NCBI RefSeq assembly: GCF_900079775.1
Contig: NZ_LT556034.1
Coordinates: forward strand, 178,324-242,323
Source: Leyella lascolaii
GTDB taxonomy: Bacteria; Bacteroidota; Bacteroidia; Bacteroidales; Bacteroidaceae
Length of the DNA: 64,000 bases
Direction: 5' to 3'
In this document: piece after piece, positions 20,341-47,113 of the stretch
Layout: each line of letters starts with the position of its first letter
How positions within the stretch are numbered: the stretch's first letter is position 1
The notes under the pieces: model-generated
What the model was told of the DNA's origin: nothing
Seen by the model: the letters and a program-made list of their open reading frames with translations, nothing else
Databases searched by the model: none
Translations under genes and position numbers: made by a program

Positions 20341-20526
20341 ACAGAACAATCGGAATCAGCCTGTCCGTAACTCTCCCGTGCGTATCAGCACACCCGCGTG
20401 CCGTACCCGTCACGGTGTTTTTCAAAATGAAGTCATAACCCATCAGCCGTTTTACATTGTCATGTCAAAAACACATCAAAGTGAACTTTTTTATACAAAA
20501 ATATGAGTATATTAAAAAACTTATAA

Positions 20527-31272: not shown

Positions 31273-32349
31273 TCAGACGTCAGAAGCCCTGAGGTCGAGC
31301 CCGTCGAGCATTCTGACATACGTGTCTATGGCTTCCTCTATCTCACTCAGGCATATATACTCATCCGCGGAGTGCGATCTTGCCGAGTCACCCGGTCCGA
31401 TCTTCAGCGAGTCGAAGGGCATGAGAGCCTGGTCGCTGAGCGTAGGCGAGCCGAAAGGCGTCAAGCCCAGCTCCACGCAACGGCGCACGAGAGGATGGCT
31501 CTCGCTGATACCGGAGGAATGGAGACGGAACGACCGCGCCGTCACATCGCTCTTCAGATGGCTGCGCACAATGTCGTACACCTCCTCGTTGGTGTAAAGC
31601 TCGTTGGTGCGCACGTCCACAACCATAGTGCAACGGTCGGGAACGACATTGTGCTGCGTGCCCGCGTTTATCACCGTGACGTTCATCTGCGTAGGTCCGA
31701 GAAAGCGGCTCACCTTCTCAAACCTGTATCCGCGCATCCAGCACAGGTCGTCCAGAGCCTCGTATATGGCGTTCACACCCTCACCGCGTGCGGCATGTCC
31801 CGACTTGCCACGTGCCGTGACGTCGAGCACCATCAGCCCTTTCTCAGCCACGGCGGGCTGCATCCGCGTAGGCTCTCCCACTATCGCCACATCTATCCGG
31901 GGCAGCATAGGCAGCACCATGGATATGCCCGAGGCGCCGGACACCTCTTCCTCCGCCGACGCCAGATACACCATGTTATAGCTTCTGTGCCTTCCCGCCA
32001 TGATGCGGAACACCTGCAAAAGCGTCACCAGTCCGCCTCCGCAGTCGTTGCTGCCCAGTCCGTAGAGTCTGTCGCCCTCCACCTGCGGGTCGAACGGGTT
32101 GCGCGTCCACGAGTCCACCGGCTTCACCGTGTCGATGTGTGCATTGAGCAGCAGTGTTGGTCTGCCGTCATCAAACGCCTCATCGGTCACCCACACGTTG
32201 TTGCCCTCGCGCCGGCATGCCATGCCCCACTCTTTCAGCGCGTCCTCCATCACGTCCGCCGCCCTGTCCTCCGAGCGGCTCAGCGACGGCACTTCAATCA
32301 GTCTTTTGAGCAATCCGACAGCATCACCGGAATAATCAGTATAGTTCAT
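31273..32349 (-). CDS. M20 family deacylase (ArgE/DapE-like)
   Basis: This cytosolic dizinc hydrolase is of the ArgE/DapE group. The start at 32349 gives MNYTDYSGDAVGLLKRLIEVPSLS and 358 residues; 29 upstream codons are leader sequence. Metal-site motifs are NAHIDTVKP, YGLGSNDCGGGLVTLL and ASAEEEVSGASG, with the C-terminal HSADEY. In Bacteroidetes this type is the arginine-pathway deacylase and may act on an N-succinyl or N-acetyl intermediate (citrulline or ornithine); which one cannot be told here. The gene is preceded by tandem promoter-like elements, one inside a dispersed repeat. Confidence 0.87.
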   Translation of the reverse strand: MNYTDYSGDAVGLLKRLIEVPSLSRSEDRAADVMEDALKEWGMACRREGNNVWVTDEAFDDGRPTLLLNAHIDTVKPVDSWTRNPFDPQVEGDRLYGLGSNDCGGGLVTLLQVFRIMAGRHRSYNMVYLASAEEEVSGASGISMVLPMLPRIDVAIVGEPTRMQPAVAEKGLMVLDVTARGKSGHAARGEGVNAIYEALDDLCWMRGYRFEKVSRFLGPTQMNVTVINAGTQHNVVPDRCTMVVDVRTNELYTNEEVYDIVRSHLKSDVTARSFRLHSSGISESHPLVRRCVELGLTPFGSPTLSDQALMPFDSLKIGPGDSARSHSADEYICLSEIEEAIDTYVRMLDGLDLRASDV

Positions 32350-32567
32350 AATTATAAAAATAAGTCGCAGCCGTCGCGGCATAATGTAAGTCAGCATACG
32401 GCAGACTGCGATGTGATATATAAAAGAGTCATGCAAACGAGAGGAAAGAGAGCTTGTCCCGATTTCCCTGAGTGCAGTTTATCCTGTGCACAAAGATAAC
32501 GCAAGGCGAGTGCAGAAGCAAGTTGGGAAAACGGAGTTTTAACAGACTTGATACTGCCGAGCCGAAG
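32350..32567 (-). promoter_or_regulatory. Leader and proximal promoter of the M20 deacylase gene
   Basis: On the minus strand a -7 box TTATCTTTG (CAAAGATAA at 32491-32499) is followed by GGATAAACTGCACTCAGGGA and then AAGCTCTC. The same leader pattern (AAGATATGCTGCACTCGGGA ... AAGCTCTC) follows the -7 box at 39195. This gives a leader of about 135 nt for the deacylase. Confidence 0.6.
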
Positions 32568-32681
32568 CTTATCTTATACAAAGATAAGACAAAATGATGG
32601 AATAATGAAATGACGGGGCGGATATTGCCGTGTATTCGACGGGAGACGCAATATTTTGCATACATATAAGGCTTGCGCCAT
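32568..32681 (-). repeat. Promoter-bearing REP-like repeat, copy A
   Basis: Read on the minus strand: ATGGCGCAAGCC, a degenerate hairpin around AAAATATTGCGTCTC, then GTCGAATACACGGCAATATC, CCGTCATTTCATTATTCC and the -7 box TATCTTTGTATAAGA (CAAAGATA at 32579-32586). It matches the copy at 44951 with about nine mismatches in about 86 bases, and points toward the deacylase gene. Confidence 0.85.
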
Positions 32682-33060: not shown

Positions 33061-33223
33061 ACATTATGCGTAACCACGTTACAGATGTATATATATGATG
33101 TTTTTATACGCATTCATCAGGACTCCCGATTCCATTTTACAAAAATCAGTTGTCAATATTTTTTACTGCCGGAATTGTATTTTTATGCAACGGATTATAA
33201 TGTAATGAGACTGCGCCTTTTGC

Positions 33224-33340
33224 TTTGTATCGCAATGGCGCAAGCCCTGTATGGTTGTAAAATCTTGCGTCCCACGTCGAATACATGGCATTATCCGCAC
33301 CGTCATTTCATTATTTCATCACCTTTCATTACTTTTGTAC
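33224..33340 (+). repeat. Promoter-bearing REP-like repeat, copy B
   Basis: TATCGCAATGGCGCAAGCCC, then AAAATCTTGCGTCCC, GTCGAATACATGGCATTATC, CCGTCATTTCATTATTTC and the -7 box TACTTTTG (33330-33337). The hairpin arm is eroded (GTATGGTTGTAAAATC). The box lies about 27 bp before the ogt ATG at 33364. Confidence 0.85.
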
Positions 33341-33363
33341 CCAAACACAAAAAACTATCCTAT

Positions 33364-33882
33364 ATGAAAATAATAACCTCCATCTACCACGCCCCGTGCT
33401 CAACCATAATGCTGGGCTCGTATGACGGGCGGCTGTGCCTGTGCGACTGGACGGGCGGCTGGCACAGCGACTCCAACTACCGCCGCCTCTTCCACATGCT
33501 CGGCACAACGTTCGAGGAAGGCGCGTGCGACGTGAACAGTAAGGCGGCGGCGCAACTCGACGAGTATTTCGGGGGCGTGCGGCGGCAGTTCGACCTCCCG
33601 CTGCTTCTCTGCGGCACACCGTTCCAGAAAGAGGTGTGGACAGCCCTGCGGCATGTAGGCTACGGTTCCACCATGAGCTACGCACGTCTGGCTGCCACGA
33701 TAGACCGTAGCAAGGCGGTAAGGGCGGTGGCTAACGCTGTCGGGGCAAACCCCATGTCTGTCATCATACCGTGCCACCGCATCACCGGAAGCGACAACAG
33801 TCTTACGGGATATGGCGGCGGACTCGACGTGAAGCGTTACCTGCTCGCGCTCGAGCAGGGCTGCCGTGCGGAGCCGTTCTGA
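33364..33882 (+). CDS. ogt: Methylated-DNA--[protein]-cysteine S-methyltransferase
   Basis: This suicide repair protein removes O6-alkyl groups from guanine onto its own cysteine. The start at 33364 gives 172 residues, the usual single-domain length. The active site is C137 in IIPCHRITG. It is preceded by the DNA-binding helix region GYGSTMSYARLAATIDRSKAVRAVANAVGANP. The C-terminal GYGGGLDVKRYLLALE is also typical. Longer upstream reading is repeat sequence. It has no Ada regulatory domain. The promoter appears to come from repeat copy B. Confidence 0.95.
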   Translation: MKIITSIYHAPCSTIMLGSYDGRLCLCDWTGGWHSDSNYRRLFHMLGTTFEEGACDVNSKAAAQLDEYFGGVRRQFDLPLLLCGTPFQKEVWTALRHVGYGSTMSYARLAATIDRSKAVRAVANAVGANPMSVIIPCHRITGSDNSLTGYGGGLDVKRYLLALEQGCRAEPF

Positions 33883-38962: not shown

Positions 38963-39194
38963 CATGCCATCGGCTTACAGCACAAGCCATTCCGGCAGCC
39001 GGAGGATAAAAAACGGGACAAGGCACCGCTTTCTTTCCATGATTAAAACAAGCTTACTTAAGGACTTACTTTAATCTTCTTACATATTATTCAGTGCAAG
39101 AGCACACTGCCACTGACAAACCTCACATCACCCGCCACATACATAACAACCGATAAAAAAGACAATCATCGTTGCCGTTATTCGTTTTTTTATT

Positions 39195-39424
39195 TATCTT
39201 TGCATAAGATATGCTGCACTCGGGAAACCAATATAAAGCTCTCATTGCATCCCCTTGCGGCATCATCACAAACAGGATGAGCGGCACATGTGCAAAAGAC
39301 CGGCAAGTGTCCAGACACATGTGATGACGCATCTTTAACTGAAAAGCGTGGACGTCAGGTGCCTGTCAGCCACGGAAAAATATGATTCACACGACCTAAG
39401 CCTGCAACTATCAATATACAGATT
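39195..39424 (+). promoter_or_regulatory. Promoter and long structured leader of the rhamnosidase-N-like gene
   Basis: The -7 box TATCTTTGC (39195-39203) is followed by ATAAGATATGCTGCACTCGG and AAGCTCTC, a leader pattern shared with the region before the M20 deacylase gene. The leader is about 210 nt and contains inverted repeats: CACATGTG twice (about 39285 and 39315), and GTGG...CAGG-TG-CCTG...CCAC near 39350-39376. The upstream part of the gap (38963-39190) shows nothing recognisable. Confidence 0.55.
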
Positions 39425-40354
39425 ATGTCTGTCGGCAAATATCTTACCATAATCGCACTGATTGTCATATATATATCAGAGACCAAGGCAAATCCTTACC
39501 AGATGCAGTGGATGGCATACCCGCACCCCGACGACACCGCCCAGGTATGGTTCAGAAACTCTTACGAAATAGCCGAGAGACCGGTAACCGCCCGGATAAC
39601 CATCGCATCGACAGGATATTTTGAGCTTTACGTCAACGAGCGCAACGTCACAGGCGACGTCCTCACGCCTCTGAGGGAACGGTGTTCTGCCAATGCCATA
39701 GCGGTGACATACGATGTGACAAGGTTCATGCGTGTCGGAACAAACACCGTGGCGGTGTGGTACTCACCGTCGTTTCCGCACCCGGAGAGCAGGCAGATAG
39801 CCCTGTCGTTCTACGGAAGAGCCGGGGACGGCTCACCGCAAGTATTCGACAACGACAGCAGCTGGCTGTGCAGGAAAGCCGTGAACACCCTCAGCTCGGA
39901 GGGACATGAACTGCTCGGAATGGAAGAGAAAGAGCCGAGATGGAACGCGGAAGACATTGACGTGGCGCGCTGGCTTCCCGCCCGCATCGTCGGGGACAAT
40001 GAGTGCGTGCCCATAGAACACCGCTCAAGGATGTACGAGGCTACAAGAATAAGCCGGATAAGGCAGCAGAAATACTTCGACATAGAGGGCGACAGCGTGG
40101 TGTACGACTTCGGTGAGGCTTTCGTAGGACTCGTAAGGGTGACGCTGCGCGACGCAGTGAAAGGACAGAACATGCGGATAGGCGACATGCGTTATGTGTG
40201 TTCGGGCGAGGCTGACGAACAGGCTATACAGCGATTCACCACGACAGACTGCCGCAGGCTGCTCATATCGGGCGACGAAAATTTCGACAACGCGCAGATA
40301 CAGAAGGTGGAGGCTCTCGAGACAGAGACCTACACAAGGGATATGAAAGAATAG
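39425..40354 (+). CDS. Orphan alpha-L-rhamnosidase N-terminal-type carbohydrate module
   Basis: This 309-residue exported protein has a signal peptide (about 1-22) and two beta-sandwich regions like those N-terminal to GH78 rhamnosidase catalytic domains. The first (about 25-165) contains ITIASTGYFELYVNERNVTGDVLTP and NTVAVWYSPSF. The second (about 210-300) contains VVYDFGEAFVGLVRVTLRDA, matching the DFGQ-type block of bacterial rhamnosidases. The (alpha/alpha)6 catalytic domain that normally follows is absent; the stop at 40354 is followed by unrelated sequence. It may be a stand-alone glycan-binding protein or a decayed enzyme. It lies just ahead of the GH76 gene. Confidence 0.7.
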   Translation: MSVGKYLTIIALIVIYISETKANPYQMQWMAYPHPDDTAQVWFRNSYEIAERPVTARITIASTGYFELYVNERNVTGDVLTPLRERCSANAIAVTYDVTRFMRVGTNTVAVWYSPSFPHPESRQIALSFYGRAGDGSPQVFDNDSSWLCRKAVNTLSSEGHELLGMEEKEPRWNAEDIDVARWLPARIVGDNECVPIEHRSRMYEATRISRIRQQKYFDIEGDSVVYDFGEAFVGLVRVTLRDAVKGQNMRIGDMRYVCSGEADEQAIQRFTTTDCRRLLISGDENFDNAQIQKVEALETETYTRDMKE

Positions 40355-44780: not shown

Positions 44781-44916
44781 ATCGCAATGGCGACAGCCCT
44801 GTAGAGACGCAAAATCTTGCGTCTCACGTCCTGCACACAGCAACAAACACATACAAATAAGGTATTGACGATATTGGCCTTACCCACTTGTGAGACGCAA
44901 GATTTTGCGTCTCTAC
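44781..44916. repeat. Inverted pair of REP-like hairpin elements
   Basis: A 27-bp element starting GTAGAGACGCAAAATC at 44801-44827 recurs as its exact reverse complement at 44890-44916, 62 bp away. Each copy is itself an imperfect palindrome (GAGACGCAA ... TTGCGTCTC). The left copy is preceded by TATCGCAATGGCG and GCCCT, as in repeat copy B. The pair could fold as one long cruciform or two hairpins. Confidence 0.85.
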
Positions 44917-44950
44917 TTTTTAGACAGCGAAATAATGCAGAGCCTTTTGC

Positions 44951-45052
44951 CCTGTAGAGACGCAAAATCTTGCGTCTCACGTCGAATCCATGGCAATATC
45001 CGCGCCGTCATTTCAATATTCCGTCATTTTATTTTATCTTTGTATAAGACAA
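44951..45052 (+). repeat. Promoter-bearing REP-like repeat, copy C
   Basis: The hairpin (44954-44980, same 27 bp as at 44801) is followed by GTCGAATCCATGGCAATATC, CCGTCATTTCAATATTCC and the -7 box TATCTTTGT (45035-45043), then ATAAGAC. The box lies about 109 bp before the start of the clan GH-D gene at 45152. Confidence 0.88.
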
Positions 45053-45151
45053 ACCGGCACACTCTGGGAAGTAAGGACCGCACTTTCTTTTGTCTCGAAC
45101 TATAATAAACTATAAACAGAAAATAATCATATAAAAACCTGAATAAAAACT

Positions 45152-47113
45152 ATGCAATGGAGGAATTTCATTTTTCTCGCCGCGATGGCGGCATGCGCGT
45201 GCAGCCGTCAACACACGGTGAGCACGGCAGGATGGCAGTTGAGCTTCGGCGATGGTGTGGATATAGTATACCGAGGTGACACCATAGCGGAAGGCACTTG
45301 GGCGGAATACGCGTTGGACGGAGACACGATGAAATCGGGGAATTATGAGCATACCGCATTCAGGAAGGAGCACATAGCCGACCGATACGGACGCGGCGTG
45401 CGCTGGACGCTTAGAATGAGCGGTGACTGTATGCCGCAGCTCGTGAGGACATTCAGACTGTATGACGGGTTCATGCTTACAGACATCGCTCTGGAGTCAG
45501 ACTCCGCCATAAGCACATCATACATGGCTCCGCTTGTGACGCGGAACACCGGAAAGATTATAAAAGATACGATGAAAAGGGCGATTTTCGTACCTTACGA
45601 TAACGATGCATGGATAAGATACGGTTCTTCAACACGTGCGGAAGACTCACTGAGAAGTTATGAGGTGACATGCGTGTACAACCCGGAAGGAAGGAAGGGA
45701 ATAGTGGCAGGAGCGATAGAGCACGACACATGGAAAAACGCGGTGGAACTGACAGACGGACGCAGGTCGATGAAACTCTTCAGCGGTGTAGCCGACCCTC
45801 TCACGCGCGACATGAAAGGTCACGGGGCGGTGGAATCGGCTCATCCGCACTCCGCAACGATGATGCTGGGATGCTTCGACGACTGGCGCGAAGGTATGGA
45901 GACGTATGCCGGACTGAACGCAAAGACGGCTCCGCCACGAAGATGGGACGGTGCGGTGCCTGTGGGATGGAACAGTTGGGGCGCGCTTCAGTTCAGTGTG
46001 AACCACGACAACGCCACCGAGGTGGCATGTTTTCTTGCCGACTCACTTATGCCCCGCTCGTTCCATAACGCTGACGGTCTGGTGTACACCGGGCTCGACT
46101 CGGGCTGGGACAGTTTCAAGGAGGCAGAGCTGAAGGACTTTGCCGACCGGTGCAAGTCCATGAGGCAGGTGCCGTGCATATACTGGACACCGTTCACAGA
46201 CTGGGCAAAGAACCCGGAAAGAAAGGTGGACGCCATGCCCGAATACAGATATAAGGACATATACCTCTATGCTGACGGCAAGCCGCAGGAGCTCGACGGA
46301 GCGTATGCCATCGACCCTACGCATCCGGCGGTGAGAGCGATGATGGAAAAGACGGCAAGCCTGTTCAGACGCTGCGGCTACAGGTATGTGAAGATGGACT
46401 TCATGACACACGGACGCATGGAGGCAGACTCATGGCACCGAAAAGACATAACCACCGGCACACAGGCGTACAACTACGGCATGCATCTGCTCGACAGCAT
46501 ATTCAGCGACATGTATATCAATCTGTCCATTTCACCGCTCTTTCCAGCGCAATACGCACAGTCGAGACGCATAGCGTGCGACGCGTGGAACAAGATAAAG
46601 GATACGGAATACACGATGAACGCCCTGACGTGGGGCTGGTGGCTCGACAAGGTGTACAGCTACAATGACGCCGACCACGTGGTGATGCGCGACGCCACAG
46701 AGGGAGAGAACCGCGCGAGGGTGACGTCTGCCGTAATCACGGGCATGTTCATCACCGGCGACGATTTCAGCAGCAAAGGAGACAGTACGGCAAAGGCTCG
46801 CGCCGTGAGGATGCTCGCCAACGAACGGGTGAACGCTCTCATAGACGGCAGAGCATTCCGACCGCTCAACGCTGATGACGACAGGAGCGAACATATGTTC
46901 GTACGCACAGAAGCGGACGGCAGGATATGTCTGGCGGTGTTCAACTATGGCGACAATCAGGCATCATTCACTCTTCCCACAGAACGCATGCCGATGCGCA
47001 AAGGCACGGAATACAGTGTGGACGAGCTGTGGAGCGGAGCACGCATAGACAGCACGTCGAGTCTAACACTTCCGCCCAAGGACGCGATGATATTCATGTT
47101 CAGTCCGGAATGA
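45152..47113 (+). CDS. Clan GH-D glycoside hydrolase lipoprotein (GH27/GH36-like)
   Basis: This 653-residue protein has a lipoprotein signal, CAC at residues 15-17 in MAACACSRQ. A beta-sandwich N-terminal domain (about 25-260) precedes a TIM barrel (about 265-560) and a small C-terminal beta domain. Clan D hallmarks are PVGWNSWGAL at the barrel entry, VYTGLDSGWD, the nucleophile D416 in YVKMDFMTHG and a probable acid/base D477 in SRRIACDAWN. Family members are mostly alpha-galactosidases or alpha-N-acetylgalactosaminidases; substrate here is undetermined. The promoter appears to come from repeat copy C. It is convergent with the C10 protease gene. Confidence 0.82.
   Translation: MQWRNFIFLAAMAACACSRQHTVSTAGWQLSFGDGVDIVYRGDTIAEGTWAEYALDGDTMKSGNYEHTAFRKEHIADRYGRGVRWTLRMSGDCMPQLVRTFRLYDGFMLTDIALESDSAISTSYMAPLVTRNTGKIIKDTMKRAIFVPYDNDAWIRYGSSTRAEDSLRSYEVTCVYNPEGRKGIVAGAIEHDTWKNAVELTDGRRSMKLFSGVADPLTRDMKGHGAVESAHPHSATMMLGCFDDWREGMETYAGLNAKTAPPRRWDGAVPVGWNSWGALQFSVNHDNATEVACFLADSLMPRSFHNADGLVYTGLDSGWDSFKEAELKDFADRCKSMRQVPCIYWTPFTDWAKNPERKVDAMPEYRYKDIYLYADGKPQELDGAYAIDPTHPAVRAMMEKTASLFRRCGYRYVKMDFMTHGRMEADSWHRKDITTGTQAYNYGMHLLDSIFSDMYINLSISPLFPAQYAQSRRIACDAWNKIKDTEYTMNALTWGWWLDKVYSYNDADHVVMRDATEGENRARVTSAVITGMFITGDDFSSKGDSTAKARAVRMLANERVNALIDGRAFRPLNADDDRSEHMFVRTEADGRICLAVFNYGDNQASFTLPTERMPMRKGTEYSVDELWSGARIDSTSSLTLPPKDAMIFMFSPE

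Follow-up and report, generated by a model that had tools for sequence, protein, structure and literature searches.

Small hairpin elements in the promoters of Leyella lascolaii and related bacteria that appear to insert beside the -7 box and rebuild it

The window analysed here, the whole 64,000-nucleotide stretch of a Leyella lascolaii contig, contains three related segments of about 100 bp, which we call copies A, B, and C. Copy C (44949-45052, + strand) lies upstream of a glycosidase-like gene (45152-47113, +) with a Melibiase_C domain (alpha-galactosidase C-terminal domain), and it includes the last of three REP-like hairpins: hairpin 1 (GTAGAGACGC...GCGTCTCAC) at 44801-44827 (+), hairpin 2 at 44890-44916, in the opposite orientation (-) and 100% complementary to the other two, and hairpin 3 at 44954-44980 (+). 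This last hairpin is followed by a tail, the first part of which (44981-45003, +) also follows some REP copies elsewhere and the remainder of which (45004-45033, +) was found only in A, B, and C, and then by a -7 box, TATCTTTG (45035-45042, +). Beyond the box there may be a decayed unit of the promoter element described below (45043-45091, +), with a weak match to our model R1 (45034-45091, 20.5 bits, E 0.079); this is the weakest of our claims, and it is doubtful whether the unit is real. Between 36373 and 44542, the window encodes putative secreted enzymes (GDPD, a rhamnosidase N-terminal domain, GH76 with CBM6, and two Por secretion tails).

Copy A (32569-32672, minus strand) is 85% complementary to copy C across 104 nt, with 89% identity within positions 12-102 of a 112-nt query, and copy B (33235-33339, +) is 82% identical to A (105 nt) and 80% identical to C (96 nt). 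These alignments bear out the claim of a first-pass annotation of this DNA that the three copies share a hairpin, a tail, and a box, and in each copy the box does face the next gene, as had also been noted: an M20 peptidase/deacylase gene for A, a 6-O-methylguanine DNA methyltransferase gene for B, and the glycosidase-like gene for C. The further claim that the box is conserved holds for two of the copies. TATCTTTGTATAAGA occurs exactly in copies A (32572-32586, -) and C (45035-45049, +), whereas copy B carries TTACTTTTGTACCC at the box position, so the full box is present in only two of the three. At up to 3 mismatches, TATCTTTGTATAAGA had five matches in the window against 0.72 expected, and none of 100 shuffles reached five.

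The first-pass annotation missed that the repeat runs past the box. All three copies align as far as TTTGTA, after which A continues into an element and B into its own leader. Copy A comprises a degenerate REP with its tail (32588-32681, -) and a -7 box, TATCTTTG (32579-32586, -), that lies outside the element and upstream of an array, which copy A heads, of one 88-nt and one 66-nt-type unit. The 88-nt promoter element (32491-32578, -; R2 match 32491-32587, 109 bits, E 7.7e-24) has a left arm, an inner hairpin, and a right arm that carries a second TATCTTTG (32491-32498), with a TTG (32519-32521) 20 nt ahead of this new -7 box. The 66-nt-type element that follows (32423-32490, -; R1 match 32423-32499, 49 bits, E 9.4e-8) is partly decayed and has lost its last box. 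Downstream lies the M20 gene (longest ORF 31273-32436, -), the true start of which is probably further in, near MLTYIM. In copy B, the box TACTTTTG (33330-33337) has no element after it, and the methyltransferase gene (longest ORF 33085-33882, +) has, from our reading of the sequence, its ATG at 33364; copy B thus reads as a paralogue of A and C that no element has occupied. A single, partly decayed unit also lies at 39194-39268 (+; R1 match of 45.7 bits, E 4.6e-7), ahead of an ORF at 39425-40354, and a very weak R1 match (20466-20504, -; 16.2 bits, E 0.6) around TATTTTTGTATAAAA may be a remnant or chance. The E-values from R1, the model of the 66-nt unit, and R2 are rough owing to a short calibration.

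The first-pass annotation had proposed that the REP, about 55 bp of tail, and the box move or are copied as a whole, spreading promoters. The 100 bp or so common to A, B, and C, with REP, tail, and box all included, do fit such a cassette. When the assembly (3,765,112 bases in 27 contigs) was searched with the 112-nt query, however, every match listed (E 3e-5 or better) included the REP, and among these matches A, B, and C alone extended past position 53. The whole query had 217 matches at E of at most 1, a figure that is not a count of REPs, as the matches beyond those listed may include the box. The tail by itself matched A, B, and C (E 4e-8 or better), and its remaining matches were short, most of them to the box end. 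The full unit of REP, tail, and box was thus found in three copies in the genome, all inside 12.5 kb, which argues that it is neither a genome-wide cassette nor the mobile part. With, in addition, no standard box in copy B and, by eye, a REP in the printed flank of only 3 of the 44 arrays described below (L039, L093, and L188), we regard a mobile cassette of this composition as very unlikely. Copies A, B, and C are instead best read, from their sequences, as one promoter segment that was duplicated locally and dispersed. What survives of the proposal is its more general part: a promoter-bearing, gene-facing repeat does exist and appears to spread, and it was the box end of the tail, matching periodic arrays elsewhere, that led to it.

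The REP forms a separate family. Its hairpin, GTAGAGACGCAAAATCTTGCGTCTCAC, is abundant, and apart from A, B, and C every listed match is confined to the REP part. In 32 stretches selected because they contain REPs (the window and 31 fetched ones), a count allowing up to 5 mismatches gave 175 copies in 41 clusters, which mostly alternate between + and - at about 88 nt; of 40 clusters placed in gene context, 24 lie between tandem genes, 11 between convergent genes, and 5 between divergent genes. This GAGACGC hairpin has a GTAG tag, a palindrome, and clusters of alternating orientation, and fits the REP description better than the promoter element does. The hairpin resembles a REP in its tag, but the assembly, which is 99.88% complete in its 27 contigs, lacks a RAYT gene (PF01797). 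The available text of the paper that defined the tags assigns GTAG repeats to other phyla and, within Bacteroidetes, gives CGTC repeats alone (PMC3733652). The alternation of the REPs at 87-90 nt (L031-L061, and 44801-44980 in the window) equals the length of the 88-nt promoter unit, though the two sequences look unrelated.

The periodic arrays are numerous. TTATCTTTGTATAAGATAA, at up to 2 mismatches, occurs at 156 places in the genome, and the reversed control occurs at none. Because 100 of the 156 places were listed and stretches were fetched around matches so listed, our array counts describe a sample: in the fetched stretches and the window (omitting L091, which overlaps L032), boxes with at most 5 mismatches formed 44 arrays with 158 boxes, plus 17 single boxes. 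This count assumed spacings near multiples of 22. When we repeated it without assuming a period, the spacings between same-strand boxes within 400 nt were 66 (57 cases), 67 (4), 87 (1), and 88 (42), with no others, and the two kinds of unit were mixed inside arrays. Units that adjoin one another in an array often have nearly the same sequence. Ahead of the first box the sequence is unique, and this box is itself variable (GTAAC, GTACC, TTAAA, ATAAT, and others), and the inner boxes are mostly TTATCTTTG (87 of 131); past the last TTTG comes either a unique leader or a decayed unit.

The arrays point at genes. Of the 61 arrays and single boxes, 60 had a downstream ORF in the stretch, and for 55 of these the ORF ran the same way as the box (5 opposite; sign test 1e-11), as compared to 28 same and 33 opposite for the gene on the upstream side (n = 61). 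This result, obtained with simple ATG ORFs after removing those of <200 aa that overlapped arrays, agrees with the first-pass expectation that the promoter end faces gene starts. Only 3 of the 61 lay inside an ORF of this crude call, and a median of 128 nt separated the ATG from the last box counted. Among the proteins encoded downstream, which we named by eye on the basis of their N-termini, are apparent LeuRS, DnaX, AroB, Sua5, TsaB, Asd, and Nth, together with secreted and unknown proteins. Such a mixture, several of its members housekeeping-like, gives no support to the common regulon that had also been suggested.

Each unit is a hairpin built around the boxes. When units from the own genome were folded, the stretch after a box (AAGATAAGC) paired with the next box downstream. 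To examine this pairing across genomes, we used an alignment (A3) of 32 units, 31 from 29 other genomes and 1 from the own genome, for which a motif filter picked a single unit from each of 33 loci that had been fetched for their good R1 matches (L297 and L223 gave none); the selection therefore leans towards good matches and the 66-nt length, and some rows are not independent of one another, such as those from orthologous loci of G131 and G347. In A3, 97.0% of the cells of the element hairpin were paired (97.6% for the arms). Changes on both sides were seen at 13 of 19 pairs, with 80 double-change cells compared to 23.2 after shuffling (reached in 0 of 500 shuffles), as in the arms AAGACAG/CTGTCTT, AAAATAA/TTATTTT, and AAAGCAA/TTGCCTT. 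One of five covariation measures, the number of further pair types, was not above the shuffles (18 compared to 18.0; 310 of 500). When the left arm was paired with the upstream box instead, there were 5 double-change cells compared to 2.6 (56 of 500), and column pair 1/19 was unpaired in 17 of the 32 units. Covariation with the downstream box and not the upstream one points to the downstream box as belonging to the element and the upstream box as belonging to the host. (Two further alignments comprised 33 of 35 units in A1, excluding L195 and L197, and 28 of 29 in A2, excluding one L085 unit.)

These observations also bear on the idea that the palindrome is the operator of a dimeric regulator and the arrays a regulon. 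TTATCTT-N5-AAGATAA is indeed palindromic and highly repeated. A fixed operator would not have sides that covary between loci and genomes, though, as these do (TTGTC/GACAA, ATATC/GATAT, CTGTC/GACAG, and TTATTTT/AAAATAA), and the covariation partner is the box one unit downstream rather than the adjacent one, which together make an operator highly improbable.

Promoters of Bacteroidota have the consensus -33 TTG / -7 TAnnTTTG, and the first boxes of the arrays look native and host-promoter-like by this standard. TAnnTTTG fitted 35 of 42 first boxes, and some of the 7 that did not fit are probably chance boxes of a loose scan. A TTG lay 19-20 nt upstream in 13 of 42, compared to about 2 expected from base composition only (P about 6e-8). 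As 26 of the 42 first boxes read TATC, a native box cannot in every case be told from an element box. The units differ in this respect: a TTG stands 19-20 nt before the unit's own new box in 43 of 46 88-nt units and in 0 of 65 66-nt units.

The units share several features with MITEs: they are short (66 or 88 nt), non-coding, ended by inverted repeats, and present in many copies. We consider it probable, at about 0.75, that they are mobile elements of a REP/MITE-like kind, which target promoters and regenerate their own target. The element would insert immediately 3' of TTTG in a Bacteroidota -7 box (TAnnTTTG), with its left arm (YATAAGATAAGC in the own genome) beginning at that point, its inner hairpin next, and its right arm (GC-A-TTATCTTTG) ending in a fresh -7 box. 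Such an insertion would leave the native -33/-7 pair intact upstream, and the new -7 box would stand as far from the gene start as the old one had. Since the element ends in another target (TATCTTTG), tandem arrays could be built by repeated insertion or by unequal recombination of one box with another. The 88-nt unit, with its TTG at 20 nt, in the -33 position, could add a whole promoter, and the 66-nt unit would add a -7 box only, lengthening the leader of transcripts that start upstream by one hairpin. New sites would then arise by transposition, with an enzyme presumably acting in trans, and the boxes would be expected to act as promoters and to affect expression of the genes they face. 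TTTG stands on both sides of a unit, and a box carried by the element or a target-site duplication would look alike. A more specific version of this mechanism, in which the element integrates as a single-stranded hairpin at the -7 region opened by polymerase, regenerates the box, and multiplies promoters across the family, is one that we put forward tentatively, as a minority possibility.

Elements of this kind extend far beyond L. lascolaii. R1 matched 148 of 200 genomes of the genus, the own genome included (E 1e-3), and 74 of the 86 good-quality ones. In a family-wide draw of 151 genomes, it matched 52 (E 1e-4), and these came from 18 of 30 genera. In other species, units recur at steps of 66-67, 73, or 84 nt. 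Judged from these sequences, the units make up a large family of small hairpin elements in Prevotella-like bacteria, a label based on one protein's best named relatives. Several hairpin kinds occur together in G010, and G045, G042, and G012 have one hairpin sequence in common. Two hairpin subfamilies, with matches of 81 nt and of 85-88 nt that include both boxes, occur in G024 (L280-L285 and L250), comparable to the 66/88 pair of the own genome. None of 80 named loci around the glycosidase gene had an R1 match at E 0.05, and a scan of 20 kb of G124 (L298) for units found none. Comparing 11 sources (44,461 bases) with Rfam gave 6 matches at E of at most 1, all below the gathering score. We found no published description of the element in the literature covered, outside of which fall most subscription journals and bioRxiv preprints.

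Looking for empty sites, as the first-pass annotation had advised, we found that promoters without the unit are present in related genomes. The leuS promoter carries an array in the own genome. A leuS gene was matched in 101 of 120 genomes (own included), and of the 29 orthologues we fetched, 2 (in G024 and G019) have units, 22 have a TAnnTTTG box but no unit in the 330 nt that we read (150 nt for one of them), 4 have no box, and 1 is cut by a contig end. The leuS unit of G024 has the hairpin of other G024 units and not that of the own-genome leuS array; because hairpin kinds are mixed within genomes and some are shared elsewhere, this genome-specific hairpin is one example and not a rule.

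A second comparison concerned the promoter of a gene starting MQNQFSRTQLLLGK, for which we read 12 loci of 35 genomes matched. In G131 the promoter reads GTACTTTTG, one unit, and CACTCTAAATAAAGG; in G145 two units stand at the same point; and in G347, with flanks 95-96% identical, the promoter reads GTATCTTTGCAGTATAAATAAAG, without a unit. The last TTTG lies 29 nt from the ATG in G131 and 28 nt in G347, such that the box-to-start distance is kept. Nine further species had no R1 match at this promoter, and of the 10 unit-free loci, only 5 (G347, G378, G210, G307, and G305) have TAnnTTTG at the aligned place. Unit number also differs at loci shared by G131 and G347, with 2 versus 4 at one and 2 versus 1 at another, as seen both in alignments and in the sequences. 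These differences do not polarise gain and loss, since a clean empty site would also be expected wherever two boxes had recombined.

The principal alternative is that the units do not move but are structured modules of the 5' leader or promoter, such as RNA stability hairpins, which selection has maintained and multiplied, and that arrays grow solely by local unequal crossing-over. Compensatory changes that keep the hairpin, near-identical neighbours within arrays, variation of array length between close species, and hairpin sequences common to several genomes would all be expected of such modules. Less easily accommodated are the leuS unit of G024, which resembles other units of that genome and not the own-genome leuS units, the orthologous promoters that mostly lack units, and the functional mixture of the downstream genes; moreover, local duplication cannot seed new promoters. 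We therefore judge non-mobile modules unlikely, and favour insertion of a mobile element at the -7 box.

A RAYT was the candidate considered as mobiliser, and it was rejected: there is no Y1_Tnp in the own genome and no positive association in the 200 genomes. Y1_Tnp was found in 14 of the 33 genomes with at least 15 R1 matches, compared to 111 of 200 overall (Fisher P 0.13, towards fewer), where the 33 element-rich genomes were picked by eye and the per-genome counts are lower bounds because covariance-model searches score 24-32 candidates per genome. In 20 tnpA loci, mostly from element-rich genomes, none had the element on both sides of tnpA, and two had R1 matches nearby on one side only: L348, with two same-side matches, the nearer within 0.2 kb, and L353, with a match at about 1.5 kb. 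The L348 match (2628-2697, in G093; 40.5 bits) is <0.2 kb from a Y1_Tnp gene that is flanked by other short repeats.

Elements of the IS200/IS605 family insert on a set side of their target tetranucleotide. Their ends are described as having subterminal hairpins, with insertion beside a short fixed target tetranucleotide (in the available text of PMC6006769), which resembles what we propose for the promoter element; in contrast, the element here has no transposase gene inside it, and its target would be a promoter box. REP/RAYT systems, with GTAG- or CGTC-tagged palindromes and the TnpAREP subclass 2.6 of Bacteroidetes, are likewise short palindromes with covarying stems that are often clustered, as far as the accounts available to us go. 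The promoter element differs from them in that the unit sequences we read had no GTAG or CGTC tag at the foot of the hairpin, and in the Y1_Tnp results above. Among MITEs, the Correia elements (CREE) of Neisseria are also short and non-coding, lie upstream of genes, and carry sigma70-type promoters; insertion at a -7 box with a rebuilt box, and fixed arrays of 66/88 nt, are absent from the part of that description available to us (PMC10969869). BrickBuilt of Porphyromonas gingivalis is another Bacteroidales MITE, intergenic and with tandem repeat units, which had promoter activity in reporter assays and is present in 19 copies in strain ATCC 33277. According to the accessible part of the source, its repeat is a 23-nt minisatellite between a non-repeated leader and tail, with IS5-type TIRs (GAGACC...) (PMC4596501), whereas here each 66/88-nt unit is itself a hairpin, one arm of which contains the box, and members of the family occur in many genera.

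Repeats that bear promoters are thus already known, and what appears to set this one apart is that its insertion inside a promoter preserves the promoter, which would explain its presence on ordinary, probably essential genes. The element would be a natural and widespread source of promoter boxes in tandem and of hairpins in leaders, and the 5' ends of genes would vary accordingly among related Prevotella-like bacteria. It could serve as a system for studying promoter evolution and possibly as a portable promoter part. A caution for users of draft genomes is that repeat-rich promoters of this kind may be mis-assembled.

Smaller duplications occur as well. Near 2299 of L179 (own genome, +), about 22 nt, comprising the -7 box and start region only, are directly duplicated without a hairpin unit, and the promoter of the MQNQFSRTQ gene in G378 (L325) likewise has a direct duplication of about 22 nt that spans the -7 box and start region without a hairpin unit. 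Both 66 and 88 are multiples of 22.
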